Below, one piece after another: positions 7,684 to 20,294 of a DNA stretch of 64,000 nt (position 1 is its first letter; each line of letters opens with the position of its first letter). The position numbers and the translations under genes were made by a program. Origin of the DNA: an uncultured Eubacteriales bacterium (lineage in GTDB: Bacteria > Bacillota > Clostridia > Oscillospirales > Oscillospiraceae); contig CASDSM010000005.1 in NCBI GenBank assembly GCA_949283375.1, forward strand, positions 121,600 to 185,599. Direction: 5' to 3'. The notes below the pieces were generated by a model. It did not search any database and was not told where the DNA came from. It saw only the letters and a list, made by a program, of their open reading frames with translations.

Positions 7684-8073
7684 TCAGTGGCCGAGGTCCT
7701 GCTTGATCTGCGTGGAGGAGATCTCCGGGGTGCGCGGCAGATAGACCACCTCGCACAGGTCCTTCAGGAAATCAAACCTGCCCTCCCAGTCGTCGCCGAT
7801 GACAAAGGTGTCCACACGGAACTCCTGCACATCTGAGCGTTTCTGCTCCCAGCAGGTCTCCGGGATCACCAGGTCTACATAGCGGATCGCCTCGAGGAGC
7901 TGCTTGCGCTGCTCGTAGCTGAAATAGCACTTCTTGTGCTTCTGCTCCCAGTTGAACTCGTCGGTGGACAGGGCCACGATCAGGTAGTCCCCCAGCGCCT
8001 TGGCCCGGCGCAGGAGATTGATGTGCCCGTAGTGGAGCAGATCGTAGGTGCCGTAGGTAATCACTTTTTTCAC
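7684..8073 (-). CDS. tagD: Glycerol-3-phosphate cytidylyltransferase
   Basis: 129 residues, exactly the length of Bacillus TagD/TarD. It makes CDP-glycerol from CTP and sn-glycerol-3-phosphate, the donor for poly(glycerol phosphate) teichoic acids, in the cytoplasm. The nucleotidyltransferase signature HYGH is at residues 14-17 after YGTYDLL, and the second signature RTPEISST lies near the C-terminus. The start is GTG at 8073 with AGGAGG 7 bases upstream; the longer open frame to 8118 is not needed. It is the first gene of the minus-strand surface-polymer operon and has its own promoter at 8188-8216. Confidence 0.95.
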   Translation of the reverse strand: MKKVITYGTYDLLHYGHINLLRRAKALGDYLIVALSTDEFNWEQKHKKCYFSYEQRKQLLEAIRYVDLVIPETCWEQKRSDVQEFRVDTFVIGDDWEGRFDFLKDLCEVVYLPRTPEISSTQIKQDLGH

Positions 8074-8124
8074 GTCAAGGCCTCCTGATGGGTCGCCGCA
8101 GCTCTCACAAAAGCGCATTTTATC

Positions 8125-8216
8125 TTCCGTCCTGCGGGACGGAAACGGCCTGTCTTTCCGGGCTTCCGGCTCTGTTCAGTACCCATTATCATACCATAAC
8201 TCTCATTGCAATGCAA
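8125..8216 (-). promoter_or_regulatory. Promoter and leader hairpin of the tagD operon
   Basis: On the minus strand TTGCAT (8211-8216), a 17-base spacer and TATGAT (8188-8193) fit a sigma-A promoter. In the leader, TTCCGTCC and GGACGGAA (8125-8132 with 8137-8144) form a perfect 8-bp hairpin about 50 bases before the tagD GTG. The 187 bases between tagD and the next upstream gene hold no other gene. Confidence 0.7.
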
Positions 8217-8260
8217 TCGCCTGACCGCCCTGCGGCGGCGTTTTCTGGCCGGGCGGCCCG

Positions 8261-9406
8261 TCAGCGCGCGCCGGCCGCCGTCTCCTGCTGCGGGCGCACC
8301 CGCTCCGGCATGAGGGAGAGGAGAAAGCGGGCGATGGCGCCGGTGTTGTCCTCCCCCGCCGTCTCGATATAGCGCGCACCAAAGCGGGCGAGGGCGGCTG
8401 CATCGTACGCCCCCGCCGCGACCGCCTCCAGCAGCGCCGCGGGGTTGCGGAAGCAGGCCCCCGGCAGCTCGCGCTCCGGGTCGATGTTGAGGCCCTGCTC
8501 GCGCTCATAGCGCTCCTTGTCAAAGAGGTAGAAGTAGACCGGCTTTGCCAGCAGGCTCGCCTCCAGCGAGGCGGCGGAGTAGTCGGTGATCACCACGTCG
8601 CACACCTTCATCAGGTCATAGGTGGACCAGCCGCGCGCCGTCCGGTGCTCCGGCGGCAGTTCAAAGCGGGAGAGGGGATGCGGCTTGACCAGCAGGGCCA
8701 CTTCCGGGCACTGCTCTGCCGCCCCCACCAGGGCGGCCACCCCCTCGTCCACCCCGTCGCGGAAGGTGGGCAGATAGAGGGCCAGACGCCGCCCCGCCAG
8801 CTGGGGCTGTGCAGCGAGATAGCGCGCGCGGGCGTCGGGGTCGGGGCGGCGGATGTAGTCCACCCGCGGCATGCCCAGCGGCAGAATGCGCTCGATCGGG
8901 GTGTCAAACGCCTTGGCGTAGATCTGCCGCGTCGCCTCGCTCGTGCAGAGGATGTAGTCATAGTTGCGGTGCATGCACATCTGCCGGGCCACCGCGCTCG
9001 AGCGCCCGCCCGGCCGGTCGAGCGACTGATAGGAGAACTGTTTCACCGCGCCCACCGCGTGCCAGATCTGGACCACTTTCTGGCCCGGCTTATGGCGCAG
9101 CACGCACAGCGGGATGGAGTAGGTATCCGTCACCGCCACGGCGGCGGTGGCGATGTGGAAGAGGCTGCGCAGCAGGAAGAGACAGTAGGAGAAGGGGTTG
9201 ATGTTCCGGGTCATCTTCCGGCAGAAGCTGACCACCTCCGTTTCGGGGGACAGCTGCTCCAGCGCCTCGCGCAGGAGGACAAAGTCCACCGGCTCGCTGT
9301 CTGACTCCCGGGAGAGCATGACCACCTTGTTTTGCAGCGGCAGCAGGCGCAGCGGCAGATACAGCAGGCGAAGCCCCAGTTTTGCCACAGCCAGGATCCA
9401 GCTCAT
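8261..9406 (-). CDS. CDP-glycerol glycerophosphotransferase family protein (TagB/TagF type)
   Basis: 381 residues. The N-terminus is a short amphipathic or membrane-associated segment (MSWILAVAKLGLRLLYLPLR). The rest matches the Glyphos_transf (PF04464) fold: VVQIWHAVGAVKQFSY, a glycine-poor middle with ILPLGMPRVD, and VITDYSAASLEASLLAKPVYFY near the C-terminus. This is the Asp-Tyr-Ser motif that binds CDP-glycerol. Such enzymes add glycerol phosphate (primer or polymer) to a lipid-linked teichoic acid precursor on the cytoplasmic face. The ATG at 9406 has GGAGGAG 5 bases upstream; the longer frame to 9577 crosses the promoter. It lies upstream of tagD, transcribed in the same direction. Confidence 0.9.
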   Translation of the reverse strand: MSWILAVAKLGLRLLYLPLRLLPLQNKVVMLSRESDSEPVDFVLLREALEQLSPETEVVSFCRKMTRNINPFSYCLFLLRSLFHIATAAVAVTDTYSIPLCVLRHKPGQKVVQIWHAVGAVKQFSYQSLDRPGGRSSAVARQMCMHRNYDYILCTSEATRQIYAKAFDTPIERILPLGMPRVDYIRRPDPDARARYLAAQPQLAGRRLALYLPTFRDGVDEGVAALVGAAEQCPEVALLVKPHPLSRFELPPEHRTARGWSTYDLMKVCDVVITDYSAASLEASLLAKPVYFYLFDKERYEREQGLNIDPERELPGACFRNPAALLEAVAAGAYDAAALARFGARYIETAGEDNTGAIARFLLSLMPERVRPQQETAAGAR

Positions 9407-9461
9407 TGCGCTCCTCCTCTCCCTCCGGACACGCTCCGGCGCGGTCGATCTCACTGAGGGT

Positions 9462-9490
9462 ATCTTAGCGGTCTTTTTCTGCCTTGTCAA
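9462..9490 (-). promoter_or_regulatory. Promoter of the glycerophosphotransferase gene
   Basis: Minus strand TTGACA (9485-9490), 17-base spacer, TAAGAT (9462-9467), about 55 bases before the start codon. It is near-consensus sigma-A. The ~300-base gap to the divergent plus-strand gene holds only the two divergent promoters. Confidence 0.8.
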
Positions 9491-9612
9491 CTGGAAAACA
9501 GACCTAATTCCTCTTTCTTCGCCCTGCTTTTCCCCTTTTTCTCCCGCCTGTGCCGGGGAGGGGGAAAATCCTGACAAATTATAAAGGTTCTATGAAGCAT
9601 GCCTCCGGCAAA

Positions 9613-9641
9613 TTGACGCATCCGGTCATCTGTGTTAAGAT
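9613..9641 (+). promoter_or_regulatory. Promoter of the L,D-transpeptidase gene
   Basis: TTGACG (9613-9618), 17-base spacer, TAAGAT (9636-9641) with an extended TGT just before the -10. Transcription would start near 9648, giving a leader of about 57 bases. Confidence 0.8.
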
Positions 9642-9704
9642 GAAGGAGCACGGATATCAATTTTCGGCCTGAGAACGGCTGTTTTGACAGAAAGGATGGT
9701 TTTT

Positions 9705-11183
9705 GTGGCTACGGCAACCCAGACTCCGGAGACCGGCCGGCGCGGCTCGGCCCTCCTCGTCGTGCTGTCCGTCCTGCTCGGCCTGCTGCTGATCCTCTTC
9801 GGCATCTATGCCGGCATTTCGGTGCGCTACGGCGGGATGTTTCTCCCCAACTCCTCCATCAACGGCATCGACGTCTCCGGCATGACGGTCGCGCAGGTGG
9901 AGCAGACCCTGATCGACAATCAGGCCAGCTACACCCTCACCATCATCGAGCGCGACGGCATGACTGAGACCATCTCCGGCGAGGAGATCGAGCTCACCCT
10001 CTCCTTTGACGGCACGCTGGAGACGCTGCTGGAGGAGCAGAACGGCTGGACCTGGCCGCTCGCCCAGCTCCTCGGCCGGACAGACCAGATGACGGTGGAG
10101 ACGATATATTCCTATGACACCGCCCTGCTCACCGAGGCAATCAGCAACCTCCTGTGCATGAACAGCGCCTCCCAGACCGCGCCGCGCGACGCATACCTCT
10201 CCGGCTACAGTGAGGAGACCGGCGGGGTGGAGATCGTCCCCGAGGTGCTGGGCAATCTGGTGGATCAGGAGATCCTCCTGCCCGCCATCCAGCAGGCGGT
10301 CGCCAGCATGCAGACCGAGCTGGATCTGGAGGCCCTGGGCTGCTATGTCGCCCCCGCCGTCACCTCGGACGACCCCACCCTCCTGGCCCAGGCGGAGGCG
10401 ATGAACCAGTTCCTCGGCGTGGAGATCACCTATGAGTTCGGCTCGGAGACCGAGGTGCTCAACGGCTCCACCCTCATCAACTGGCTGGAGACGGGCGAGG
10501 ACGGCAGCCTCTCCGTCAACAGGGACGAGGTGACCGCCTTCGTGCGCAGCCTGGCCTACAACCACAACACCTACGGCGCCACGCGCACCATCAACAGCTC
10601 CTATGGGCAGGAGGTGACGGTGACCGGCGGCGACTACGGCTGGTGGATGGACGAGCCGGCCACGGTAGAGGACCTCTACGACGCCATCGTCAATCAGGAG
10701 AGCGGCGTACGCGAGCCCATCTGGCAGCGCGAGGCGGTCTCCTTCGACGGGCCGGACTACGGCGACACCTACATCGAGCTCAACCTCACTGCCCAGCAGC
10801 TCTTCTTCATCCAGAACGGCGAGGTGGTGCTCACCTCCGACGTGGTCACCGGCCTTGAGACAGTGGAGGACCGGCGCACCCCGACCGGGACCTACGGCCT
10901 GACCTACAAGCAGTCCCCCGGTACCCTGGTGGGCGAGGGGTACAACAGCCATGTCAGCTACTGGATGCCGTTTTACTACAACGTCGGCCTGCACGACGCC
11001 GACTGGCGCAGCAGCTTCGGCGGGACGATCTACAAGCGCAGCGGCTCCCACGGCTGCGTGAATATGCCCATCGCCAACGCCGCCGCCCTGTATGCCCTGG
11101 TGGATGCCAACACCCCCATCTTCGTCTACGAGCTGGAGGGGACCGAGCGCTCGGAGACCTCCGGTCAGATCTACGAGAGCTGA
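9705..11183 (+). CDS. Membrane-anchored L,D-transpeptidase (YkuD domain) with VanW-type peptidoglycan-binding domains
   Basis: 492 residues. A single membrane helix (about residues 14-38) is followed by two repeats of the PG_binding_4 type seen with VanW/YkuD proteins (NGIDVSGMTVAQVEQTL is the hallmark). A C-terminal YkuD domain follows, with LHDADWRSSFGG (His near 429) and SGSHGCVNMP (catalytic Cys near 451). It should form 3-3 cross-links or attach proteins to peptidoglycan outside the membrane. I chose the GTG at 9705 because AAAGGA sits 8 bases upstream; the ATG at 9696 and TTG at 9684 have no ribosome site. Single-gene unit: own promoter before it and a hairpin terminator after it. Confidence 0.92.
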   Translation: MATATQTPETGRRGSALLVVLSVLLGLLLILFGIYAGISVRYGGMFLPNSSINGIDVSGMTVAQVEQTLIDNQASYTLTIIERDGMTETISGEEIELTLSFDGTLETLLEEQNGWTWPLAQLLGRTDQMTVETIYSYDTALLTEAISNLLCMNSASQTAPRDAYLSGYSEETGGVEIVPEVLGNLVDQEILLPAIQQAVASMQTELDLEALGCYVAPAVTSDDPTLLAQAEAMNQFLGVEITYEFGSETEVLNGSTLINWLETGEDGSLSVNRDEVTAFVRSLAYNHNTYGATRTINSSYGQEVTVTGGDYGWWMDEPATVEDLYDAIVNQESGVREPIWQREAVSFDGPDYGDTYIELNLTAQQLFFIQNGEVVLTSDVVTGLETVEDRRTPTGTYGLTYKQSPGTLVGEGYNSHVSYWMPFYYNVGLHDADWRSSFGGTIYKRSGSHGCVNMPIANAAALYALVDANTPIFVYELEGTERSETSGQIYES

Positions 11184-11201
11184 GCAAGCTGTAGACGACA
11201 A

Positions 11202-11246
11202 GCCGCCCCGCCGCGACCAGAGAGATCGCGGCGGGGCGGCAATTTT
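11202..11246 (+). terminator. Terminator between the L,D-transpeptidase and the convergent kinase gene
   Basis: A perfect 15-bp stem, GCCGCCCCGCCGCGA (11202-11216) with its complement at 11226-11240, has a 9-base loop and AATTTT after it. It best serves the plus-strand gene and may also stop the opposing operon. Confidence 0.8.
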
Positions 11247-11281
11247 CATGCCTGGGGAAGGGGAACGGCGCCTGTGGCTCC

Positions 11282-12274
11282 CTAGGACAGATCCAGCTCT
11301 CCTGCACGCTTGAACCAGTCGTCCATCTTGCCGCTGCCCCGCACCTGTTTGGGCTGCTCGGGCGGAGCGGGAGGAGGGGGTGGGGGTGGAGGCGGAGGAG
11401 GCGGCGTGGGTGGGACGACCGGCTCGACCGGGCGGAGCAGGCGCTCGAAGAACGCATAGGCGTCCGCCGCTGTACCGCGCTGCTCCGGCTCCGGAGCAAG
11501 CAGGCGCTCGATCACAGCGCGCTCCTCCCCCTCCAGTTTTCCGGAGAGGGCGACCGGTTCACCGGAGAGCAGCGCCACGGCAGCGCAGCCGAAGTTCTGC
11601 CTGTCATAGTCCGGCATCTCGCCGGTCAGGATATCGTGCAGCAGCAGCCCGAGGGCGAACACATCGCAGCTGCAGTCCAGCGTCTCGCGCATCCCGGCCT
11701 GGTATTCCAGCATCTCCGGGGCGACATACGCCTCGTCGTACTGGAGCATCTCCGCCTCGGGCGGCCGGTTGGCAAAGAAGCTGGCGTCAAAGTCGATCAC
11801 CTTGGCCACATAGTGTCCCGCCCCGCTCTTGACCAGCAGGATGTTCTCCGGCTTGAGGTCGGAGTGGACCACGCCGCGGGCGTGCAGGCTCATCAGCGCG
11901 TGCGTGAGGGTCAGGCACACCATCTGCCGCTCCTCCAGCGGCTGCTCCACCAGCTTTTCGATCTGCAGCGACTCCTGATGGATGCGCGGCATGGCCAGAT
12001 AGTAGTGCCCTCCCTGGCGGAAGAAGCACTCCGGGCGGATCACATTTCCATCCGATGCGTTGGCAATGGCGCGGTAGAGGACGCTCTTCTCCTCCTCAAA
12101 CTGCTTGCAGTACTCGATCTGCTGCGCTGCGCCCGGCGCGTCCGCCTTGGGATAGACCGGGTCGAGAAAGCGCTTGATGAAGTACTCCTGTTTGCCGCGC
12201 CGGCCAAAGGTCCAGGCACTGAAGCCCGCATTCTCGTTTTGGAAGGCGGCTTCCAGCTCATAGCGGCACTCCAT
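11282..12274 (-). CDS. Ser/Thr protein kinase of a VWA-PP2C-kinase operon
   Basis: 330 residues. Kinase core (1-~285): Lys34 in YFIKRF, Glu60-62 in the alpha-C region, catalytic loop HSDLKPEN with Asp139 and Asn144, metal-binding Asp161 in a DFD (not DFG) motif, and APE at 185-187. The HRD Arg is Ser, so activation-loop control probably differs from canonical kinases. A linker with twelve consecutive prolines follows. The protein ends in a short distinct motif, KMDDWFKRAGELDLS, that looks like a docking or substrate tail. No membrane helix. The ATG overlaps closely with the phosphatase stop (1 base between them). It is the last gene of the five-gene operon and presumably phosphorylates partner proteins whose phosphate the PP2C removes (inference). 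Confidence 0.88.
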   Translation of the reverse strand: MECRYELEAAFQNENAGFSAWTFGRRGKQEYFIKRFLDPVYPKADAPGAAQQIEYCKQFEEEKSVLYRAIANASDGNVIRPECFFRQGGHYYLAMPRIHQESLQIEKLVEQPLEERQMVCLTLTHALMSLHARGVVHSDLKPENILLVKSGAGHYVAKVIDFDASFFANRPPEAEMLQYDEAYVAPEMLEYQAGMRETLDCSCDVFALGLLLHDILTGEMPDYDRQNFGCAAVALLSGEPVALSGKLEGEERAVIERLLAPEPEQRGTAADAYAFFERLLRPVEPVVPPTPPPPPPPPPPPPAPPEQPKQVRGSGKMDDWFKRAGELDLS

Positions 12275-12275
12275 C

Positions 12276-13265
12276 TTACCTGCTCCCCTTTCCCGCGATC
12301 TGACTCTGATATGCCGGGCGATAGGCGGCCCAGAGGCGTCGCTTTGTCTCGGCGATCTGCGCCGCGTCCCCCGACTCATAGGCCCGGTAGAGCGGCTCGA
12401 TCATCTCTTTCCACATCCACTCATAGCGCGGCCGGAGGCGGCTGCGCAGGGTGGCATAGTCCCCCATGCCGGTGACGGTGAAGGCGAGGGTGAAGTCATC
12501 TCCCGCGATCTCTCCCAGCAGGGTACGCAGCGAGGCCTCAAAGGCCTCCGGCGTCTCGCTCTGGGTGATGGCATGCAGGAGATAGTATTCAAACTCCATC
12601 GGCGTCTGCAGATATCCGAAGCACCCGTCCGTCGCGGCCAGTACCAGGCAGGGCGCATCCAGCGTGCCAGAGGCCGTGTTGAGCTGGTAGTTGCCGTCGG
12701 CGGAGAGCACATTGCTCATCGGTGCATCGCTCTCCATCGCCTCCAGCGTGGCGCCCTCCGCGTCGTCCCGCGTGAGCTGGCACAGGCCGTTGGCATCCAG
12801 GCGGTAGACCCGCGAGTCCCCCGCCCAGATGACGCACAGCCGGGTCCTGCCGCCGGTATGGCGCAGCGCCGCCATCGCCAGTGTGCTCGGCAACAGGCGC
12901 ACCAGCGTGCCGACCGCATCGTCCTGCGCCTCGCGGCCGAGCGCCCGCTGGCAGATCTGAAAGCCACGGCGGATCAGACCGTCGAGCTGCTGTGCGGCCT
13001 CTATATCGCTCTTCCACTGGTCTCCATACGCGGCAAACCACTGGCCCACCGCGGCTGCGGCGATCCGGCTGGCCAGATAGGCCCCGGTATGCTTTCCGGC
13101 GGCCTCATACCGCCGGGCGCCCATGCCGCCGCTCCCGTCCGCGACGGCCGCCACCGCGCAGGACGGACGCCAGGCGGCGTAGAAGCCGTCCTCCCCCGCG
13201 TCCGGCCGGCTCTCGGCAAAGAGCACGGAGACCTGGTCCAGCCAGTCCTCATACTTCATCTTCAT
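12276..13265 (-). CDS. PP2C-family Ser/Thr protein phosphatase of the VWA-PP2C-kinase operon
   Basis: 329 residues. PP2C motifs in order: a D-G pair in AVADGSGGMG (Asp43, Gly44), WAGDSRVYRL near 148, ATDGCFGY near 215, and GDDFTL near 255. These acidic residues bind the two metal ions, so the enzyme should be active. A C-terminal extension of about 60 helical, Arg/Trp-rich residues (RPRYEWMWKEM) is not part of the catalytic fold. It is cytoplasmic, with no membrane segment. It lies 12 bases after the VWA gene stop and 1 base before the kinase ATG. By family it reverses Ser/Thr phosphorylation laid down by the neighbouring kinase. Confidence 0.9.
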   Translation of the reverse strand: MKMKYEDWLDQVSVLFAESRPDAGEDGFYAAWRPSCAVAAVADGSGGMGARRYEAAGKHTGAYLASRIAAAAVGQWFAAYGDQWKSDIEAAQQLDGLIRRGFQICQRALGREAQDDAVGTLVRLLPSTLAMAALRHTGGRTRLCVIWAGDSRVYRLDANGLCQLTRDDAEGATLEAMESDAPMSNVLSADGNYQLNTASGTLDAPCLVLAATDGCFGYLQTPMEFEYYLLHAITQSETPEAFEASLRTLLGEIAGDDFTLAFTVTGMGDYATLRSRLRPRYEWMWKEMIEPLYRAYESGDAAQIAETKRRLWAAYRPAYQSQIAGKGSR

Positions 13266-13277
13266 CGCCGCCCCCGG

Positions 13278-13997
13278 TCAGATCGAGTTGCAGACGGTGT
13301 TGAGAATGCTCGCGTAGTCCTGCTCGCCCAGGCCCTCGCCCGCCTTGGACGGGCGAAGATAGACCTGATTCCACTCCCGCGCAATATCCGTCCAGCTGGG
13401 GGCATCCGGCGCGAAGATCAGCAGGCGCTTGGCGCTCTGGTCCATCTTCCCCGGCGCGCCGCGGTTGCCCCACATGGCGGTCAGCTCCCCAAAGGTCTTG
13501 GGCATGGATTTCGGATACTTGGGATACTTGCTCCCAAAACCGAGCGGATGGGTGGGCGCATCCGTCCAGACCACAATGACATGGCGGCGCTTGATCCCCT
13601 CTTTGGTCCAGTCGGAGTGGATGGCGTAGGCCAGCGCCTCCAGCCCGTCCTCCGGGTCGTCGCCGCCGCCCTTGACCTCGATGCTGTTGATGCAGCGGGC
13701 AAACTCCTCCTGCTCCTCCGGCATGTCAAAGAATCGGGTCACCATCATGGCGTCCTCCTTGTCATACCAGTAGTCGCGAAAGGCGATCACCCGGATGCGC
13801 AGGCGGCCCACCCGCTTGTTTTTGTACTCCATGTTCTCCCGGAAGTCATCGTAAAAGCGCAGAGCGTTCTCCTTGACCATCGTCATCAGCGGCAGCATGC
13901 TCACCGTCGCATCGATGCAGAACACCAGATCGACGCAGTAGGCAGACTGCTGCGCCCAATTCCGCGGCCCCATGCCGCCGTTTCCCGGATATACCAT
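13278..13997 (-). CDS. TerY-like von Willebrand factor A (VWA) domain protein
   Basis: 239 residues, almost all one VWA domain. The metal-ion-dependent adhesion site is intact: Asp29-x-Thr31-x-Ser33 in FCIDATVSML, a conserved Gly-Gly-Asp-Asp stretch (VKGGGDDPEDGLEAL), and Asp in VVWTDAPTHP. No signal peptide, so cytoplasmic. It resembles TerY-type VWA proteins, which in tellurite-resistance neighbourhoods are encoded with a PP2C and a kinase. The ATG at 13997 was chosen over the one at 14018 because AGGAGG lies 7 bases upstream. VWA domains usually scaffold protein complexes through the bound metal; here it is probably the adaptor of the phospho-switch (inference). Confidence 0.9.
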   Translation of the reverse strand: MVYPGNGGMGPRNWAQQSAYCVDLVFCIDATVSMLPLMTMVKENALRFYDDFRENMEYKNKRVGRLRIRVIAFRDYWYDKEDAMMVTRFFDMPEEQEEFARCINSIEVKGGGDDPEDGLEALAYAIHSDWTKEGIKRRHVIVVWTDAPTHPLGFGSKYPKYPKSMPKTFGELTAMWGNRGAPGKMDQSAKRLLIFAPDAPSWTDIAREWNQVYLRPSKAGEGLGEQDYASILNTVCNSI

Positions 13998-14017
13998 TCT
14001 CTCTCCTCCTCTGGACA

Positions 14018-14803
14018 TTACCAGGCAGCGCCCGCCGCCGATCTGCGGCTGACATCGCCGTCATAGCTTTCATTGGCCTGCTGCCAGTAATCACTGTCAA
14101 CAGTTGGCACTTCGTTGGGCCTATCATCCGTCTCCGGCTCATATTCTCCGGTCTGACCCGGCTGCAGCTCCAATTCCCCGGTCTGTTCTGCCTGCTGCCC
14201 GGCCTCCTGCATCTCACGCATCTCCGCAGCGGCCCTCTCCGCCTCTTCCGCAGCCGCCTGCGCCCTGTCAAGATAGTCCGCCATCTGGTCGAGCATCGAC
14301 TGGAAGGCGGGGTCTGCGCTGTCAAACATGGACACATCGCCCTCCACCGGCGTTCTGTCCTCTTCGCTCAGGCCGCTCTCTGCGCTGGCCTGCCGCGCCT
14401 GGAGTGTGTTGACCGCGTCCACAGTCTCATCGATCCGGCTGTCCAGCTCATCCAGGGTGCTGCCCGTGCTGCACGAGCGCAGGAAGAGGAAGCCAATGAG
14501 CAGCAGCAGGATACCTGTCAGCACCAGCATCCCCCGGAACAGGGCGCGCAACTCCTTCGCCTGATCCCTGAGCTGCGTCTCCAGGCGCATCACGCTGGCG
14601 CCGCCGGAGACGCTCTGCCGGGCAGCCGACTGCACACGTCCCCGGTCCGCCTGAGGCGGGCGGCTCTCCTGTGCCGTCCCCTTCCGGGCAGGTTGGTAGA
14701 GGTCCCAGAAGCCGTTGGAATATTCCGCCGGCTGGCTCTTCGCGCCGCAGTTGGAACAGACAGGCTCTCCATCCTTCAGGCGGCATCCACATTTCTTGCA
14801 GTA
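14018..14803 (-). CDS. Zinc-ribbon membrane protein with cytoplasmic head and coiled-coil tail
   Basis: 261 residues. An N-terminal zinc ribbon with Cys3, Cys6, Cys17 and Cys20 (CKKCGCRLKDGEPVCSNCG) is followed by a basic, polar linker. One membrane helix lies at about 88-111 (LVLTGILLLLIGFLFL). After it comes a long Ala/Glu/Gln-rich segment that reads as a coiled coil and then an acidic, disordered tail. I start at the GTG at 14803, with GGGGAG upstream, rather than the longer frame to 14848. By topology the ribbon is probably cytoplasmic and the coiled coil outside. Its place between the other zinc-ribbon gene and the VWA gene suggests it anchors or senses for the phospho-module. No known family name recognised. 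Confidence 0.8.
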   Translation of the reverse strand, partial: YCKKCGCRLKDGEPVCSNCGAKSQPAEYSNGFWDLYQPARKGTAQESRPPQADRGRVQSAARQSVSGGASVMRLETQLRDQAKELRALFRGMLVLTGILLLLIGFLFLRSCSTGSTLDELDSRIDETVDAVNTLQARQASAESGLSEEDRTPVEGDVSMFDSADPAFQSMLDQMADYLDRAQAAAEEAERAAAEMREMQEAGQQAEQTGELELQPGQTGEYEPETDDRPNEVPTVDSDYWQQANESYDGDVSRRSAAGAAW

Positions 14804-14829
14804 CACAGCGCTCTCCCCTCTCTTCTCTC

Positions 14830-15141
14830 TCAATAGACGTTGCGCCATCCGCAGACCGGACAGCTTGCGTGCTCCATCCCCAGCTCGGAGTCACAGCGCG
14901 GACAGATGCGGCCAGAATTCGACATGCTGTCGTCAAAAAAGACCGCCTCCGCGATCAGCTCTTCCTTTTTCGGCTCCCGTTTCTGCTTGCCTGACGGGTT
15001 GAATGCCGCCGTGGACTTTGTGCCGGTATAAGTCAGCTTTCCGCTGTCCTCCAGCCGCTTTCCGGCGGGATTCTTTTTCCCCACATAATGAAACAGGACA
15101 ACGATACCGATGACGACACACACAAGGAGCAATACCGGCAT
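14830..15141 (-). CDS. Small single-span membrane protein with C-terminal zinc ribbon
   Basis: 103 residues. Residues 2-20 are one membrane helix (PVLLLVCVVIGIVVLFHYVG). A basic linker follows, and a C-terminal zinc ribbon (CPRC ... CPVCG near 80-97) ends in WRNVY. I chose the ATG at 15141 because GGTGGAG lies 6 bases upstream. It is the first gene of the five-gene operon, about 70 bases downstream of a strong promoter, and ends 26 bases before the next start. It forms a pair with the next zinc-ribbon protein, which has the ribbon at the opposite end. Function unknown. Confidence 0.8.
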   Translation of the reverse strand: MPVLLLVCVVIGIVVLFHYVGKKNPAGKRLEDSGKLTYTGTKSTAAFNPSGKQKREPKKEELIAEAVFFDDSMSNSGRICPRCDSELGMEHASCPVCGWRNVY

Positions 15142-15214
15142 TACAGTCTCCACCTTCCCCGCTCTCGCCGGCCGGTGCAGATCGCGCCGCGGCGTGGTTG
15201 ATTTAACAGACATT

Positions 15215-15244
15215 ATTATACTCTATCTTCCTTCGCTCTGGCAA
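15215..15244 (-). promoter_or_regulatory. Promoter of the zinc-ribbon/VWA/PP2C/kinase operon
   Basis: Minus strand TTGCCA (15239-15244), 18-base spacer, perfect TATAAT (15215-15220). All five genes downstream are spaced by 1-26 bases with no terminator between them. Confidence 0.75.
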
Positions 15245-15315
15245 GGTCCTGCTGCGGCTTTTGAAAAAAAACCTCCGCTTGCCGGAAACGGGGCTCCCTG
15301 TGCTCCAGGCAGTGC

Positions 15316-15357
15316 AAAAGCCGCCGAGAATCCGCTCTTTCGCGTTTCTCAGCGGCC
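15316..15357 (-). terminator. Terminator after the 99-residue hypothetical gene
   Basis: On the minus strand GCCGCTGAGAA and TTCTCGGCGGC pair (one G-U) around a loop of about 14 bases and are followed by TTTT. Confidence 0.65.
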
Positions 15358-15400
15358 TTTCGGCGTATCTGTGCACTTTGCATCCGGGCGCAGGCGGCGC

Positions 15401-15700
15401 TCAGCCCTGCGGGCATATGGCACCATACTGCCCATCCAGCCATCCGATCACCTGCTCATGTCCCTCCTCTGTGAGCGGGAACTCCGCCCTGTCGAGCACC
15501 TCGCTCTCCTCCAGGCAGTATTCCCCCCTCCAGACGAGGACCTCCACATGGCTCCCGGCGAGCAGCTCACCGGTCGCCTTCTCCCGCATCACCGTGGGAC
15601 GGACGAGAAAGCGCATCTCGCCCAGGCTGCCGAAGAAGGCGTTGCCATTTGTCCAGCTGTGCAGATTGGTGAGGAAAAAGTCAGGGTTCTCCCGCAGCAT
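15401..15700 (-). CDS. Small hypothetical protein (99 residues)
   Basis: 99 residues, soluble, with mixed charge and several aromatics (FFLTNLHSWTNGNAFFG, GSHVEVLVWRGEYC). A good ribosome site (GAGGAGG) lies just upstream and a terminator after it. I do not recognise the family. It reads like a small alpha/beta protein with one Cys pair unlikely to bind metal. It lies just after the S10-spc-alpha operon terminator in the same direction, so it is probably expressed by read-through or from a weak promoter not evident in the 83-base gap. Confidence 0.7.
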   Translation of the reverse strand: MLRENPDFFLTNLHSWTNGNAFFGSLGEMRFLVRPTVMREKATGELLAGSHVEVLVWRGEYCLEESEVLDRAEFPLTEEGHEQVIGWLDGQYGAICPQG

Positions 15701-15721
15701 GGCGGCATCCTCCTCTCAAAG

Positions 15722-15759
15722 AGAAAACGCGCCGCAGAGCACGACGTCCTCTGCGGCGC
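15722..15759 (-). terminator. Terminator of the S10-spc-alpha ribosomal operon
   Basis: Minus strand stem of 11 bp, GCGCCGCAGAG with CTCTGCGGCGC (15729-15739 and 15749-15759), loop of 9, followed by GTTTTCTC, 25 bases after the rplQ stop. Confidence 0.8.
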
Positions 15760-15783
15760 ATATCCCGGCAATGGAACCGATGC

Positions 15784-16125
15784 TCACACCAGCTCGAGCA
15801 CCGCGATCTCCGCGGCGTCGCCCCGGCGGAAGCCAGCCCGGACGATCCGGGTGTAGCCGCCGTTGCGGTCGGCATACTTCGGGCCGATCTGGTCGAACAG
15901 CTTCTTGGCCACGTCCTCCTTGGTCAGGAAGGCGAGGGCCTGACGGTAGGCGGCCAGGTCGTTCTGCTTGGCCAGGGTGATCATCTTCTCCGCCAGCGGG
16001 GCGATCTCCTTGGCCCGGGTGACGGTGGTTCTCATCTGGCCGTGCTCGAGCAGGTCAGTGGTCTGCTGGCGCAGCATGGCCATACGGGCGTCAGTGGTCT
16101 TGCCCAGTTTGCGATAACCAGCCAT
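15784..16125 (-). CDS. rplQ: 50S ribosomal protein L17
   Basis: 113 residues, the short Firmicute form of L17. It starts [19 protein letters not shown] and contains [17 protein letters not shown] and the C-terminal [18 protein letters not shown], all family hallmarks. L17 sits near the peptide exit tunnel of the large subunit. It is the last gene of the superoperon, 65 bases after rpoA, with an operon terminator 25 bases beyond. Confidence 0.97.
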
Positions 16126-16190
16126 TCCAATTCACTCCTTCAGTCCGCCCTGCCGCAGCAGGGCTTTGATTTCTCGGGCGAATTGCCCGG

Positions 16191-17144
16191 TCAGTTATTT
16201 TCTTCGCTCTTGAGAGAGAGCCCCATCATCGCCAGCTTGTTGATGACCTCCTCCAGGCTCTTGCGGCCCAGATTGCGCACCTTCATCATCTCGTCCTCCG
16301 TCTTCTCGGTGAGATCCTGGACGGTGTTGATGTTGGCCCGCTTGAGGCAGTTGAAGGAACGGACGGAGAGGTCCAGCTCCTCGATGGTCATCTCGAGCAC
16401 CTTGTCACGCTGCGCCTCCGGCTTCTCCACCACGGTGGAGCGGCTGCCCACCGTCTCGGACAGGTCGGTGAAGAGGGCAAAGAGGTCGCACAGGATCTTC
16501 GAGCCCAGGGAGACGGCGTCGCGGGCGGTCATGGTGCCATCCGTCCAGACCTCCAGCGTGAGCTTGTCGTAGTCGGTCATGTTGCCCACACGGGTGTTCT
16601 CCACCGTGTAGTTGGCCTTGAGCACCGGGGAATAGATGGAGTCCACCGGGATCACGCCGATGATGGACTGCTGCATCGGCTTGTTGCGGTCGGCGGGCAC
16701 ATAGCCGCGGCCGTGGCTGAGCGTCAGCTCCATATTCAGGGTGGCGTCCGGACCGAGGGTGGCGATGTGCAGGTCGGGATTGAGGATCTCCACCTCGCCG
16801 TCGGCCTTGATGTCACCCGCAGTGACCTCGCCCTCGCCGCTGGCCTGGATATAGACCGTCTTCGTCCCGGTGCCGAAGAGCTTGGCGATAATCTTCTTCA
16901 CATTCAGGACGATCTGGGTCACATCTTCCTTGACCCCGGGGATGGTGCAGAATTCATGCTGAACGCCGGCGATCTTCATGGTAGTGACGGCAGTGCCGGG
17001 GAGAGAGGACAGCAGGACACGGCGCAGGGCGTTGCCCAGCGTGGTGCCATAGCCGCGCTCCAGAGGCTCGACGACATACTTGCCATAGGTACCGTCATTG
17101 GGGTTCTCAACACACTCAATGCGGGGCTTATCAATTTCTACCAT
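16191..17144 (-). CDS. rpoA: DNA-directed RNA polymerase alpha subunit
   Basis: 317 residues, normal length. The N-terminal assembly domain (1-~230) has [20 protein letters not shown]-type sequence and the 'PGTAV' turn. The C-terminal domain (~250-310) has [19 protein letters not shown] and [13 protein letters not shown], the helix-hairpin-helix that binds UP-element DNA and activators. The dimer nucleates beta and beta-prime. It lies in the alpha part of the superoperon, between rpsD and rplQ as usual. A structured 169-base spacer precedes it. Confidence 0.98.
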
Positions 17145-17313
17145 TTATTACATACCCTCCTCGTCTGCGGGGGAACGGCTCGCGTTCCCCTTTTGGTTGT
17201 ACAGCTTACCAATCTGAGGAAGCACTGATTCAATGGGCGGCGGACCGGACAGGCAGTCTGGCCCGCCGCTCTCTCTTTCTTTGACTCAGAGGTTCCTGAT
17301 GAGGGCCGGGCGA
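17145..17313 (-). promoter_or_regulatory. Structured spacer between rpsD and rpoA
   Basis: 169 bases with no gene, wider than most spacers in this operon. The RNA can form GCGGCGG/CCGCCGC (7 bp) and, directly before the rpoA ribosome site, GGGGAACG/CGTTCCCC (8 bp). No U-run follows, so these are not intrinsic terminators. A role in setting rpoA translation or in S4-type feedback is possible but unproven. Confidence 0.4.
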
Positions 17314-17919
17314 TTACTTGGAGTACAGCTCGACGATCAGGTGCTCTTCCACAGGGAAGTCGATGTCGGCGCGCTCCGGCAGACGAGTGATGGTGCCCTT
17401 CAGGGCCTCTTTCTCGCGGTCCATCCAGGCGGGGACGGTGACGGCGATGGCGTCCTCACCCAGGAAACGCTTGAACTTGACGGAGGAACGGCTGGTGTCC
17501 TTCACCTCGACCACGTCGCCGGCCTTCACCAGGTAAGAGGGGATGTTCACCCGCTTGCCGTTGACCAGGAAGTGGCCGTGGCTCACCAGCTGACGGGCCT
17601 CGCGGCGGGTCAGGGCGAAGCCCATGCGGAACACGACGTTGTCCAGACGGCGCTCGAGGGTGACGAGCAGGGTCTCGCCGGTGACGCCGGGGGCCTTGGC
17701 GGCCTTCTCATAGTAGGTGCGGAACTGCTTCTCCAGCACGCCGTAGATGAACTTGACCTTCTGCTTCTCCTGAAGCTGGAGGGCGTACTCGCTCTTCTTG
17801 CGGCGCATCTGGTTCTTCGCGGTGCGCTTGGTGCTCTTTTTGCCGTTATAGCCCATCACGGCGGGGGAGATGCCCAGGGCCTCGCAGCGCTTGGCGATGG
17901 GCTGAGTGTTCTTGGCCAT
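17314..17919 (-). CDS. rpsD: 30S ribosomal protein S4
   Basis: 201 residues. It begins [19 protein letters not shown] and holds the S4 RNA-binding domain ([39 protein letters not shown]). S4 starts small-subunit assembly at the 5' domain of 16S rRNA and in many bacteria represses its own operon. The N-terminal Cys cluster of zinc-binding S4 forms is absent (only one Cys), so this is the zinc-free form. Confidence 0.98.
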
Positions 17920-17944
17920 AGTCTCTTATGCCTCCTTCTTGTGA

Positions 17945-18340
17945 TCAGACACGTCTTCTCTTGGGAGGACGGCAGCCATTGTGGGGCACGGGGGTGACGT
18001 CCTTGATCAGGGTCACTTCCAGGCCCACGCCCTGCAGCGCGCGGATGGCGGCCTCACGGCCGGCGCCCGGGCCCTTGACGTACACCTCCACCGTCTTCAG
18101 GCCATGCTCCATGGCGGCCTTGGCGGCGGTCTCCGCGGCGGTCTGCGCGGCGAAGGGGGTGGACTTACGGGAACCACGGAAGCCCAGGCCACCGGAGGAG
18201 GCCCAGCTCAGGGCATTGCCCTGCAGGTCGGTGACGGTGACCATGGTGTTGTTGAAGGAAGAGCGGATATGCACAGCGCCCTTCTCCACGTTCTTGCGCT
18301 CGCGGCGGCGGCGAACGACTTTCTTAGTAGCTTTGGCCAT
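17945..18340 (-). CDS. rpsK: 30S ribosomal protein S11
   Basis: 131 residues with the conserved [17 protein letters not shown]-type strand, [15 protein letters not shown] and the C-terminal [18 protein letters not shown]. It forms part of the platform of the 30S subunit near the E site. It lies between rpsM and rpsD, spaced 16 and 25 bases. Confidence 0.98.
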
Positions 18341-18356
18341 TGTTCATATCCCTCCT

Positions 18357-18725
18357 TTACTTCTTCTTGTTGGCAATGGTCTTCTTCGGGCCCTTGCGGG
18401 TGCGGGCGTTCGTCTTGGAGCGCTGGCCGCGCACGGGCAGGCTCTTCTTATGGCGCAGGCCACGATAGGAGCCGATCTCAATGAGGCGCTTGATATCCAT
18501 AGCCACGTTACGGCGCAGGTCGCCTTCGACCATATACTGGTGGCCGATCACGTCGCGCAGGGCGGCCTCCTGGGCCTCAGTCAGGTCACGGACGCGGGTA
18601 TCGGGGTCGATCCCGGTCTGGGCGAGGATCTTCTGGGCGCTGGTGCGGCCGATGCCATAGATATAGGTCAGGCCGATCTCCACGCGCTTATCCTTGGGCA
18701 GGTCAATGCCGGCAATACGAGCCAT
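18357..18725 (-). CDS. rpsM: 30S ribosomal protein S13
   Basis: 122 residues. [20 protein letters not shown], the helix-two-turn-helix region [14 protein letters not shown], and the basic tail [17 protein letters not shown] are all standard. S13 sits in the head of the 30S subunit and contacts tRNA and the L5 bridge. 16 bases downstream of rpmJ. Confidence 0.98.
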
Positions 18726-18741
18726 AAATCAATACACCTCC

Positions 18742-18855
18742 TTATCCTTGTCTCTGCTTGTGCTTGGGATTCGGGCAAATCACCATAACTCTGCCCTTGC
18801 GCTTAATGACCTTGCACTTTTCGCACATGGGCTTGACGGACGGTCTTACTTTCAT
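18742..18855 (-). CDS. rpmJ: 50S ribosomal protein L36
   Basis: 37 residues, too short for many ORF screens. [20 protein letters not shown] is followed by a second Cys and His in [13 protein letters not shown]: the C-C-C-H zinc ribbon of the ancestral zinc-binding L36. AGGAGG lies upstream. Position between infA and rpsM is canonical. Confidence 0.97.
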
Positions 18856-18936
18856 CGTCGTACCTCCTGTTTTGCTGCATGGGACCGTACCCTTGTCCAG
18901 AGGGCGTGTTCCCATGTCCCCGCCGGGCAGGCGGGC

Positions 18937-19155
18937 TTATTTGCTTCTCCAGGTAATCCGGCCGCGAGTCAGATCATAAGGGGACATCTGGACTGTCACC
19001 TTATCTCCCGGGAGGATCCTGATATAGTTCATCCGGAGCTTGCCGGAAATGTGGGCCAGGATGGTGTGGCCGCGTCCGATATCCACCAAAAAGGTGGTGT
19101 TGGGCAGGGCCTCTTTCACGATCCCTTCCAGCTCGATCATATCTTCTTTGGACAT
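18937..19155 (-). CDS. infA: Translation initiation factor IF-1
   Basis: 72 residues, the universal length. It is one OB fold with [20 protein letters not shown], and [20 protein letters not shown] near the end. IF-1 binds the A site of the 30S subunit during initiation. It lies between the KOW-domain gene and rpmJ. Confidence 0.98.
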
Positions 19156-19162
19156 GAGCGTT

Positions 19163-19474
19163 TTACCTCCTATGCGGAGTTCCCGTTTCGGGACCTTCCG
19201 GGGAATCTGAGTCGCGGAAGGCGGCCAATACAGCGCGCAGTTGCCTGTCGCTGACCGCTTCGCCTCTGTGCAGCCGTTCGGCTGCCGGATGTGCGCTGGT
19301 CCCTACGCAGCGGAGATGCCTCGGGTTCTTCCGCTTGGGCGTAGCCAGCTTTCTCCCCTTACCGTCGGCGACCAGGACGCGGTCCCCCTCGACCGCGAGG
19401 ACGAGGAAGAGGCGGCCCCGGTCATGCCCGGCCAGGGAGAGAACGATTTGTCTCGGGTGGATACTTACATTCAT
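19163..19474 (-). CDS. KOW-domain RNA-binding protein (L14e-like)
   Basis: 103 residues. The first ~50 residues form a KOW motif of the archaeal/eukaryal L14e/L6e kind ([20 protein letters not shown] followed by [14 protein letters not shown]). The remaining part is basic and Pro/His-rich ([18 protein letters not shown]). Genes of this sort are commonly found between map and infA in clostridia and are presumed to bind rRNA, but no firm function is known to me. The start overlaps the map stop region, so it is translationally coupled. Confidence 0.85.
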
Positions 19475-19475
19475 A

Positions 19476-20294
19476 TCACTCTCCGCACCGGGTGAGGATC
19501 TCCGCCTCGCCGTCGGTGATGAGAATGGTATTTTCGTAATGGGCGGCCAGCTTGCCGTCCGCCGTCATGGGGACGACCCAGCCGTCCGGCATCCGGCGGT
19601 TGCGGATGCGCGCGCTGCCCTCGTTGACCATCGGCTCGATGCAGATGGCCATGTTGGGATACAGGCGCGGATTGCCGCCCAGGCGGCGCTCGGGCACGAA
19701 GTTGGGGACCTCCGGCGCCTCGTGGACGCTGCGGCCGATGCCGTGGCCGGTGTACTCCCGGACCAGGCTGTAGCCCGCGCCCTCGGCGCACTGCTGCACC
19801 GCGGCGGAGATGTCATGCACATGTCCGCCGGCGCGCGCCATGCGGTACCCGGCCCAGAAGGCCTGCTCCGTGGTCTCGATCAGCCGCCGCGCCTCGTCGG
19901 AAATCTCACCGCAGGCGAAGGTCGCGCAGCAATCGCCGTGATATCCGCCGACGGCCACGCCGTTGCGGTCAAGCTTATAGTCTCCCACGCAGGCGCCGAC
20001 GTCGATGGTCACGATGTCCCCCTCTTCCAGCCGGCGGTTGCCCGGCACGCCGTGGATGATCTCGTCGTTGACCGAGATGCACGCCGCGCCGCGGAAGCCG
20101 TAGAGGTGGTAGAAGGAGGGGTATCCGCCGTGACTGCGGATAAACTTGAAGATCTCGTGGTCGATCTCCCGGGTGGTGACGCCCGGGCGGACCAGGCTGC
20201 CGCCGAAGGCACGCGCCTCGGCCGTCAGCCGCCCCGCCCGGCGCATCAGCTCCACCTGATGGGGCGAGAGGATGGTGATGCGTTCTCCGGACAT
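19476..20294 (-). CDS. map: Methionine aminopeptidase, type I
   Basis: 272 residues. All five metal ligands of the pita-bread fold are present: Asp in VTIDVGACVGDYKLD (two), His in YTGHGIGRSVHEAP, Glu in MAICIEPMVNEG, and Glu in the last strand ITDGEAEILT. It removes the initiator Met from nascent chains. Two starts are possible: GTG at 20300, which overlaps the adk stop as GTGA, and ATG at 20294, two codons later, which I use. Downstream of adk as in most Firmicutes. Confidence 0.97.
   Translation of the reverse strand: MSGERITILSPHQVELMRRAGRLTAEARAFGGSLVRPGVTTREIDHEIFKFIRSHGGYPSFYHLYGFRGAACISVNDEIIHGVPGNRRLEEGDIVTIDVGACVGDYKLDRNGVAVGGYHGDCCATFACGEISDEARRLIETTEQAFWAGYRMARAGGHVHDISAAVQQCAEGAGYSLVREYTGHGIGRSVHEAPEVPNFVPERRLGGNPRLYPNMAICIEPMVNEGSARIRNRRMPDGWVVPMTADGKLAAHYENTILITDGEAEILTRCGE

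Follow-up and report, generated by a model that had tools for sequence, protein, structure and literature searches.

How do the products of a bacterial VWA, PP2C, and Ser/Thr kinase gene set connect to each other and to the membrane? Such sets recur in bacteria, and the question is raised by an operon at positions 11282-15244 of a 64,000 nt stretch from an uncultured Eubacteriales bacterium (contig CASDSM010000005.1), which is called the window throughout. The operon consists of five minus-strand open reading frames (ORFs), encoding two membrane zinc-ribbon proteins (ZR1 and ZR2), a VWA protein, a PP2C phosphatase, and a Ser/Thr kinase; their order and strand agree with a preliminary description of this DNA. 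We found that most kinases of such sets, as well as several partner proteins of unlike build, share a C-terminal peptide with the consensus DWFxxAGDL. This peptide is new here, and it may offer a clue to how the parts connect. The preliminary description missed both the tail and the larger versions of the set, which encode further tagged proteins.

The shared C-terminal peptide

The comparison was based on 21 loci with a close relative of the window VWA (the window among them; profile E≤1e-95) and five loci with a divergent VWA (L023, L057-L060). They represent all VWA places in the order, genus, and class genomes and the strong one in the family genomes, with two weak family matches left out. 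Genes were called with simple rules for ORFs. Many of the genomes are drafts, and loci within one genus are not independent.

We compared the ends of 22 kinases, 19 encoded within the gene runs and those of L022, L081, and L098. Twenty of the 22 have a recognisable tail, a judgement made partly by eye. Its key position is occupied by D in 16 cases, by E in two (the window and L046), by N in one (L018), and by S in one (L098). Run proteins of unlike build end with DWFTSAGDL, RFKPAGDL, RFKQAGDL, or HFQQAGDL, and the kinases end alike, behind a linker. A strict pattern, [FW]..[AG]G[DE]L.?$, was found in 11 of the 19 run kinases and 11 of the 115 other run genes. It was absent from the 1370 other ORFs of 60 aa or longer in the six frames, and 0.002 matches were expected at shuffled ends. 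The window operon is a minimal version, in which the kinase alone is tagged, with the divergent form WFKRAGELDLS that fails the strict pattern. Looser patterns were defined after the ends had been viewed, and one of them gave a chance match on the ZR2 protein of L055. The tail is present in none of 24 PP2C and none of 30 VWA proteins.

The 11 strictly tagged non-kinase genes belong to seven loci, five of the genes to L049, and nine of the 11 have transmembrane segments (TMs) by hydropathy. In those with TMs the tag follows the last one, and from our reading of the topology it is probably cytosolic. One tagged protein of L049 has a signal-like start, BspA-type leucine-rich repeats (4.3e-66), and a TM before the tail. 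By blastp, the bodies of the 11 proteins and of a further one from L072 are unlike, with the exception of two pairs related over their full length (11689 and 12491 of L049; 12345 of L056 and that of L072), and all other links among tagged proteins are confined to ribbons or tails.

Another motif may mark phosphorylation sites. Run genes contain eight LK(S/T)TMR-like stretches in 68,040 residues (one of them in a divergent locus), versus three in 200,699 residues of other ORFs, and tails contain them in L049:10655-13246, L053:7452-8057, L050:8608-9120, and L046:10790-11830.

A sub-type of the tail, in which an acid replaces Gly, was observed in three loci without the usual ribbon pair, L046, L050, and L051 (FFKKADEL, HFMKADDLS, and HFKKAEDIF, respectively).

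The gene set and its spread

The products of the window operon and their parts are the following, in the order of their positions.

11282-12274, minus strand: Ser/Thr kinase, 330 aa (Pfam match, alignment)
11285-11323, minus strand: C-terminal tail of the kinase, DDWFKRAGELDLS, which is a diverged form of the DWFxxAGDL tag (alignment with other kinases)
11351-11419, minus strand: proline-rich linker in the kinase tail, recognised by eye
12276-13265, minus strand: PP2C phosphatase, 329 aa (Pfam match, alignment)
13278-13997, minus strand: VWA protein, 239 aa (longer ORF to 14018)
13899-13913, minus strand: metal ion-dependent adhesion site (MIDAS) motif of the VWA protein, D29-A-T-V-S33, read from the sequence; D29, T31, and S33 are invariant in the alignment
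14018-14806, minus strand: ZR2, with an N-terminal zinc ribbon, a GFWDL motif, one TM, and an outer coiled-coil-like part (GTG start; longer ORF to 14848)
14830-15141, minus strand: ZR1, 103 aa, with an N-terminal TM, a cytosolic linker, and a C-terminal four-Cys ribbon (longer ORF to 15213)

With these preferred starts the intergenic gaps from ZR1 to the kinase are 23, 20, 12, and 1 nt. The Pfam matches of the VWA protein (VWA_4, 1.8e-8), the phosphatase (PP2C_2, 7.1e-9), and the kinase (Pkinase, 2.9e-25) are all above the cut-offs. D43, G44, D213, and D256-D257 of PP2C are invariant in three aligned rows, and K34, H137, D139, K141, D161, D163, P186, and E187 of the kinase in 19 rows. The kinase is not of the PASTA type (PknB/PrkC), as it scored 48.6 with NF033483, for which the cut-off is 450 bits, and gave no PASTA match.

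The preliminary description proposed that the co-occurrence of these genes be checked, and their association is indeed conserved. PP2C adjoins VWA in all 21 close loci (in L056 it follows a second VWA gene), in 19 of the 21 the run also includes the kinase, and a ribbon pair like ZR1-ZR2 is found directly upstream of VWA in 16 of the 21. Neither of the opposite outcomes that it had considered, ribbon genes not conserved beside the triad or a triad restricted to other partners, was observed. In L022 the kinase gene is farther down, outside the run, and in L052 the contig ends, a tagged kinase being encoded on another contig of that genome. Several loci have extra genes between PP2C and kinase, many of them with TMs and ribbons, and one of the five divergent loci has a ribbon pair. 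The results show a recurring clostridial set, most often in the order ZR1-ZR2-VWA-PP2C-(zero to four variable genes)-kinase. Sets with two or three tandem VWA genes were seen in L056, L057, and L059.

The set is patchily distributed. Counting the genome of the window in each case, VWA was found in 3 of 32 genus genomes, 4 of 150 family genomes (including two with weak matches, at E-values of 3e-6 and 2e-5, in long frames), 7 of 394 order genomes, and 14 of 391 class genomes. With a wider profile (E≤1e-30), the only one of 398 phylum genomes was that of the window itself. The search of a contig collection added one contig of a metagenome-assembled genome. Related VWA-kinase sets, with a PP2C by our reading, are present on Herpetosiphon and Calothrix plasmids (L096, L097). 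The viral contig collection contained no match to the window VWA patterns and six VWA relatives with 24-28% identity. A phage collection yielded one unverified faecal scaffold labelled “Bacteriophage sp.” (L098:109-2783, MT836186.1) with the order PP2C-kinase-VWA near integrase-like ORFs. Given only these six distant relatives and the unverified scaffold, a reading of the set as phage cargo was rejected.

Candidate readers of the tail

Minimal operons tag only the kinase, and therefore the likely reader of the tail is VWA, PP2C, ZR1, or ZR2. VWA is the best-conserved part of the set: its identity to the window copy is 51-58% in the 20 other close loci, compared with 29-39% for the kinase (n = 18) and 33 and 31% for PP2C (n = 2). 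It is a stand-alone protein without a TM by the hydropathy rule, and the intact MIDAS of the preliminary description was confirmed: D29-A-T31-V-S33, E116, and D146 are invariant in a 24-row alignment save for the two x positions of the motif.

The fold of VWA resembles that of integrin beta I domains. The 36 best Protein Data Bank matches of its structure model (predicted local distance difference test score 72.8, predicted TM-score 0.76) are integrin entries, mostly chains B or D, which were taken as beta, and a pilus adhesin follows at rank 37. Among proteins, all 16 VWA profile matches at E≤0.01 are integrin beta-8 or beta-6 (best 3.8e-4). By our reading of the profile alignment, D29, T31, S33, D113, P115, and E116 correspond to D119, S121, S123, D217, P219, and E220 of integrin beta-3, which the accessible part of one source lists as ligands of the MIDAS and the synergistic metal-binding site (PMC3792891). 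Both thus have a DxSxS-type MIDAS with a Glu, E116 here and E220 in beta-3. According to the portions available of two further papers, the I domain of integrin beta-3 binds fibrinogen AGDV, whose Asp lies at the MIDAS metal (PMC4813479), and MIDAS sites bind extended peptides (PMC7159879). By analogy, the acidic residue near the C-terminus of the tagged proteins may likewise act as a ligand. In contrast to the integrin domain, the window VWA is a stand-alone bacterial cytosolic protein with neither hybrid domain nor alpha chain, and its ligand binding is predicted. Tag-bearing and divergent VWAs differ at many positions, including T149, G153, and G155 (after D146) and K190; these may form a rim for the tail or may simply reflect descent.

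From the gene set, the tail, and the fold likeness we infer who binds whom, as well as signal, substrate, and output. The reading that we tentatively favour, at somewhat less than even chances, is a membrane-associated Ser/Thr phospho-switch with a cytosolic VWA hub that would read the shared tails at its MIDAS. ZR1 and ZR2 would hold the hub at the membrane via their cytosolic ribbons, the MIDAS metal would grip the tail by its acidic residue, in the way that integrin beta-3 grips fibrinogen AGDV, and the kinase would dock on VWA by its own tail. In the larger versions, membrane proteins with outer parts would join the kinase or displace it by means of this tail, so that an outside signal would alter its reach, and PP2C would remove the phosphorylation marks and reset the switch. 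A little more hesitantly, we consider it possible that bacteria have here an intracellular equivalent of ligand recognition by integrins, in which the metal-holding VWA reads DWFxxAGDL tails and tagged proteins (the kinase, membrane sensors, and the doubly tagged FtsW-type cell-wall synthase of one genome) join one kinase/phosphatase switch. If VWA does read the tail via its metal site, the acid-on-metal recognition of integrins and fibrinogen would operate inside bacteria.

Several observations weigh against this switch. The kinases of L008 and L022 have no tail, the acidic residue is replaced in L018 and L098, and several kinases have extra residues after it. Within L049 the likeness of the tails spans 33-50 residues, and some of these tails may be recent copies. 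The ribbon pair is absent in L008 and L046, a single ribbon-TM gene is present in L024 (near a contig end) and L051, and L050 has two ribbon genes of different make. The tail was looked for and not found in the distant Herpetosiphon and Calothrix plasmid sets. An out-of-sample prediction of the tail was made, for which no new loci turned up; the end of the L098 kinase, first viewed after the prediction, is FKQAGSLF, i.e. in the right place with S for D. The VWA model is only fair, with Foldseek TM-scores of 0.48-0.61 by query length among the listed hits, and MIDAS folds are common.

The strongest alternative is that the tail docks on PP2C, the kinase domain, or a ribbon protein, like the docking motifs of kinases and phosphatases, and that VWA is a mere scaffold. 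The restriction of the tag to the kinase in minimal operons leaves PP2C, ZR1, and ZR2 as candidates next to VWA, and L046, which has a tail and no nearby ribbon pair, leaves VWA or PP2C. However, the acid-and-hydrophobic end of the tail resembles a known MIDAS ligand, and VWA is the best-conserved and integrin-beta-like part; we regard docking elsewhere as unlikely while giving it real weight.

A short shared tail is a searchable code, by which partners and possible clients can be named from sequence alone. We searched for it at the DNA level with the pattern F..[AG]GDL-stop (TGG also allowed) and used the reversed pattern as control. The 23 VWA genomes contain 29 matches versus one reversed match. 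For comparison, 113 class genomes without VWA (five VWA genomes were set aside) contain 25 versus 17. Of the 29, 21 lie inside VWA-kinase gene clusters, including contig C63 of genome G758, a separate contig with a kinase gene, and three end in TGG instead of a stop codon. Five matches remain. One is an FtsW-type protein (G593), a second is a duplicate of a kinase end and lies at the edge of a contig (L085), two are short frames with 57 and 72 codons (L076, L086), and the last is an unassigned 243-codon frame, the single match in the genome of the window, which was taken as due to chance.

These values bear on the idea that the tail serves in protein handling, as a signal for degradation, localisation, or order of assembly that a general cell factor reads, and that it is shared because the proteins are made and turned over together. 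Its position at the extreme end of proteins of unlike build would fit, but the pattern does not look general: among the matches in VWA-less class genomes, one of the 16 that were read (nine of the 25 were not) ends a frame of more than 100 aa, and the other 15 are in frames no longer than 63 codons. We consider this idea improbable.

The FtsW-type protein of G593 (L141:5580-7232; Pfam 4.5e-57) is encoded upstream of two transpeptidase genes and has two copies of the tag, FFRGGDL and FFTGGGDL. In this one genome it is a possible client of the proposed VWA-centred switch, and it makes cell-wall synthesis a possible output.

That the operon is a phage-defence module, as others with kinases of this kind are, is quite improbable. 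The patchy spread, the copy beside an integrase-like ORF on the unverified phage-labelled scaffold, and matches of the window kinase to PADLOC kinase models (best mad6, 6.4e-32) speak for it. However, PADLOC matched none of the other four operon proteins, and the NCBIfam MAD6 score is 78.9 versus a cut-off of 460 bits, which places the kinase outside MADS and PD-T4-6. With the kinase as the sole PADLOC match, a defence system was rejected.

The ribbons bear on the last alternative. ZR2 matches Zn_Ribbon_1 (1.2e-4) and ZR1 matches DZR_2 (0.0036) and DZR (0.0042), all below the Pfam cut-offs, and the four Cys residues are invariant in 15-row alignments of each protein. A RanBP2-type pattern (custom regular expression) was found in 11 of 16 ZR1 copies, the window copy not among them, and Pfam PF00641 matched 6 of 15 copies at E≤0.1, with the window copy outside the listed matches. 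The motif GFx[DNH][IL] follows the ZR2 ribbon in 15 of the 16 ribbon-pair loci. The opposite polarity of the two proteins in the preliminary description holds for the domain order, but the charges flanking the TMs, assessed by eye, suggest that both ribbons are cytosolic. They may equally well be tethered binding modules as sensors. The zinc- or redox-sensing membrane module coupled to a phospho-switch, suggested earlier on the grounds of two membrane ribbon proteins with invariant Cys residues, obtained no result in its favour and was rejected as most improbable, since ribbon zinc is usually structural, many ZR1 copies fit a binding-finger pattern, and L008 and L046 lack the pair.

Known systems, promoter and surroundings

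The window set is a membrane variant of the known TerY-P-like VWA-PP2C-kinase triad, a likeness that the preliminary description had already recognised. In the TerY-P triad, according to the accessible part of the source, a TerY-like VWA, a PP2C, and a Ser/Thr kinase are encoded together, the kinase being fused to a C-terminal ribbon (PMC11090510). Both sets thus have the same trio and a zinc ribbon. They differ in that the ribbons here belong to separate membrane proteins and that most kinases end in the shared tail. No CxxC was found in the window kinase, hence it has no C-terminal ribbon fusion; among the kinases of the loci, only L026 and L057 have any, one CxxC each. No ter or restriction gene was recognised beside the window set in its ORF list, no ter model having been searched in the genome. 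The arrangement had been called undescribed, which applies to the ribbon pair and the tail within the literature searched and not to the triad; the search retrieved no recognised account of the tail or of a ribbon-pair operon, with most subscription papers outside its coverage.

As an observation in its own right, the CxxC of L026 is part of a partial ribbon-like stretch in the kinase linker, CGLCG...HVCG (L026:3321-4412), perhaps left over from a kinase-ribbon fusion of the TerY-P type.

Actinobacterial sets share a kinase, a PP2C, and a stand-alone vWA with the window; the part of the paper available links them to GAP1-N2 systems, with a ribbon or TM in some kinases, and mentions neither tail nor ribbon pair (PMC7159879). 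No GAP1-N2 partner was recognised here. In the ArnA-ArnB pair, a RanBP2-type finger was measured to bind a vWA protein within a switch with the kinase ArnC and PP2A, according to the accessible text (PMC12852372). The likeness is that of a RanBP2-type zinc finger and a vWA protein in a kinase/phosphatase switch, whereas that system is archaeal and soluble, ArnB has an FHA domain and a beta-sandwich, and the phosphatase is PP2A.

The PpkA/PppA threonine-phosphorylation pathway of type VI secretion has a kinase, a PP2C, a VWA, and membrane inputs in common with the window set; it differs in that the VWA is fused to the kinase, it is proteobacterial, and its output is via FHA.

Two features flank the operon.

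15215-15244, minus strand: putative promoter TTGCCA-N18-TATAAT, a consensus match at 11 of 12 positions
11202-11240, no strand assigned: 17-bp hairpin, possible two-way terminator (z -5.36)

The single promoter proposed earlier is the only such site within 10900-16200 (0.4 expected in shuffles). The ATG at 15213 cannot be the start codon served by it, because this ATG begins only 1 nt past the -10 box, whose end is at 15215. We therefore prefer the ATG at 15141 as the start of ZR1, which is also supported by a relative in L005 that starts with its TM. The hairpin lies between the convergent genes for the kinase and an L,D-transpeptidase. The fraction of G and C is 0.63-0.67 over 11000-14999, inside the range of 0.60-0.67 of 8000-19999.

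Upstream, a 99-aa protein is encoded beside rplQ (15401-15700, minus strand). Scans with Pfam and NCBIfam gave no match for it, and tblastn matches were found in four of eight congener stretches (L110, L112, L113, and L114). In the congener G517, a CNNM/CorC gene (L110:5735-7006) lies between the same flanking genes, i.e. those for the L,D-transpeptidase and the 99-aa protein, and VWA is on another contig. The operon occupies different places in the two genomes.

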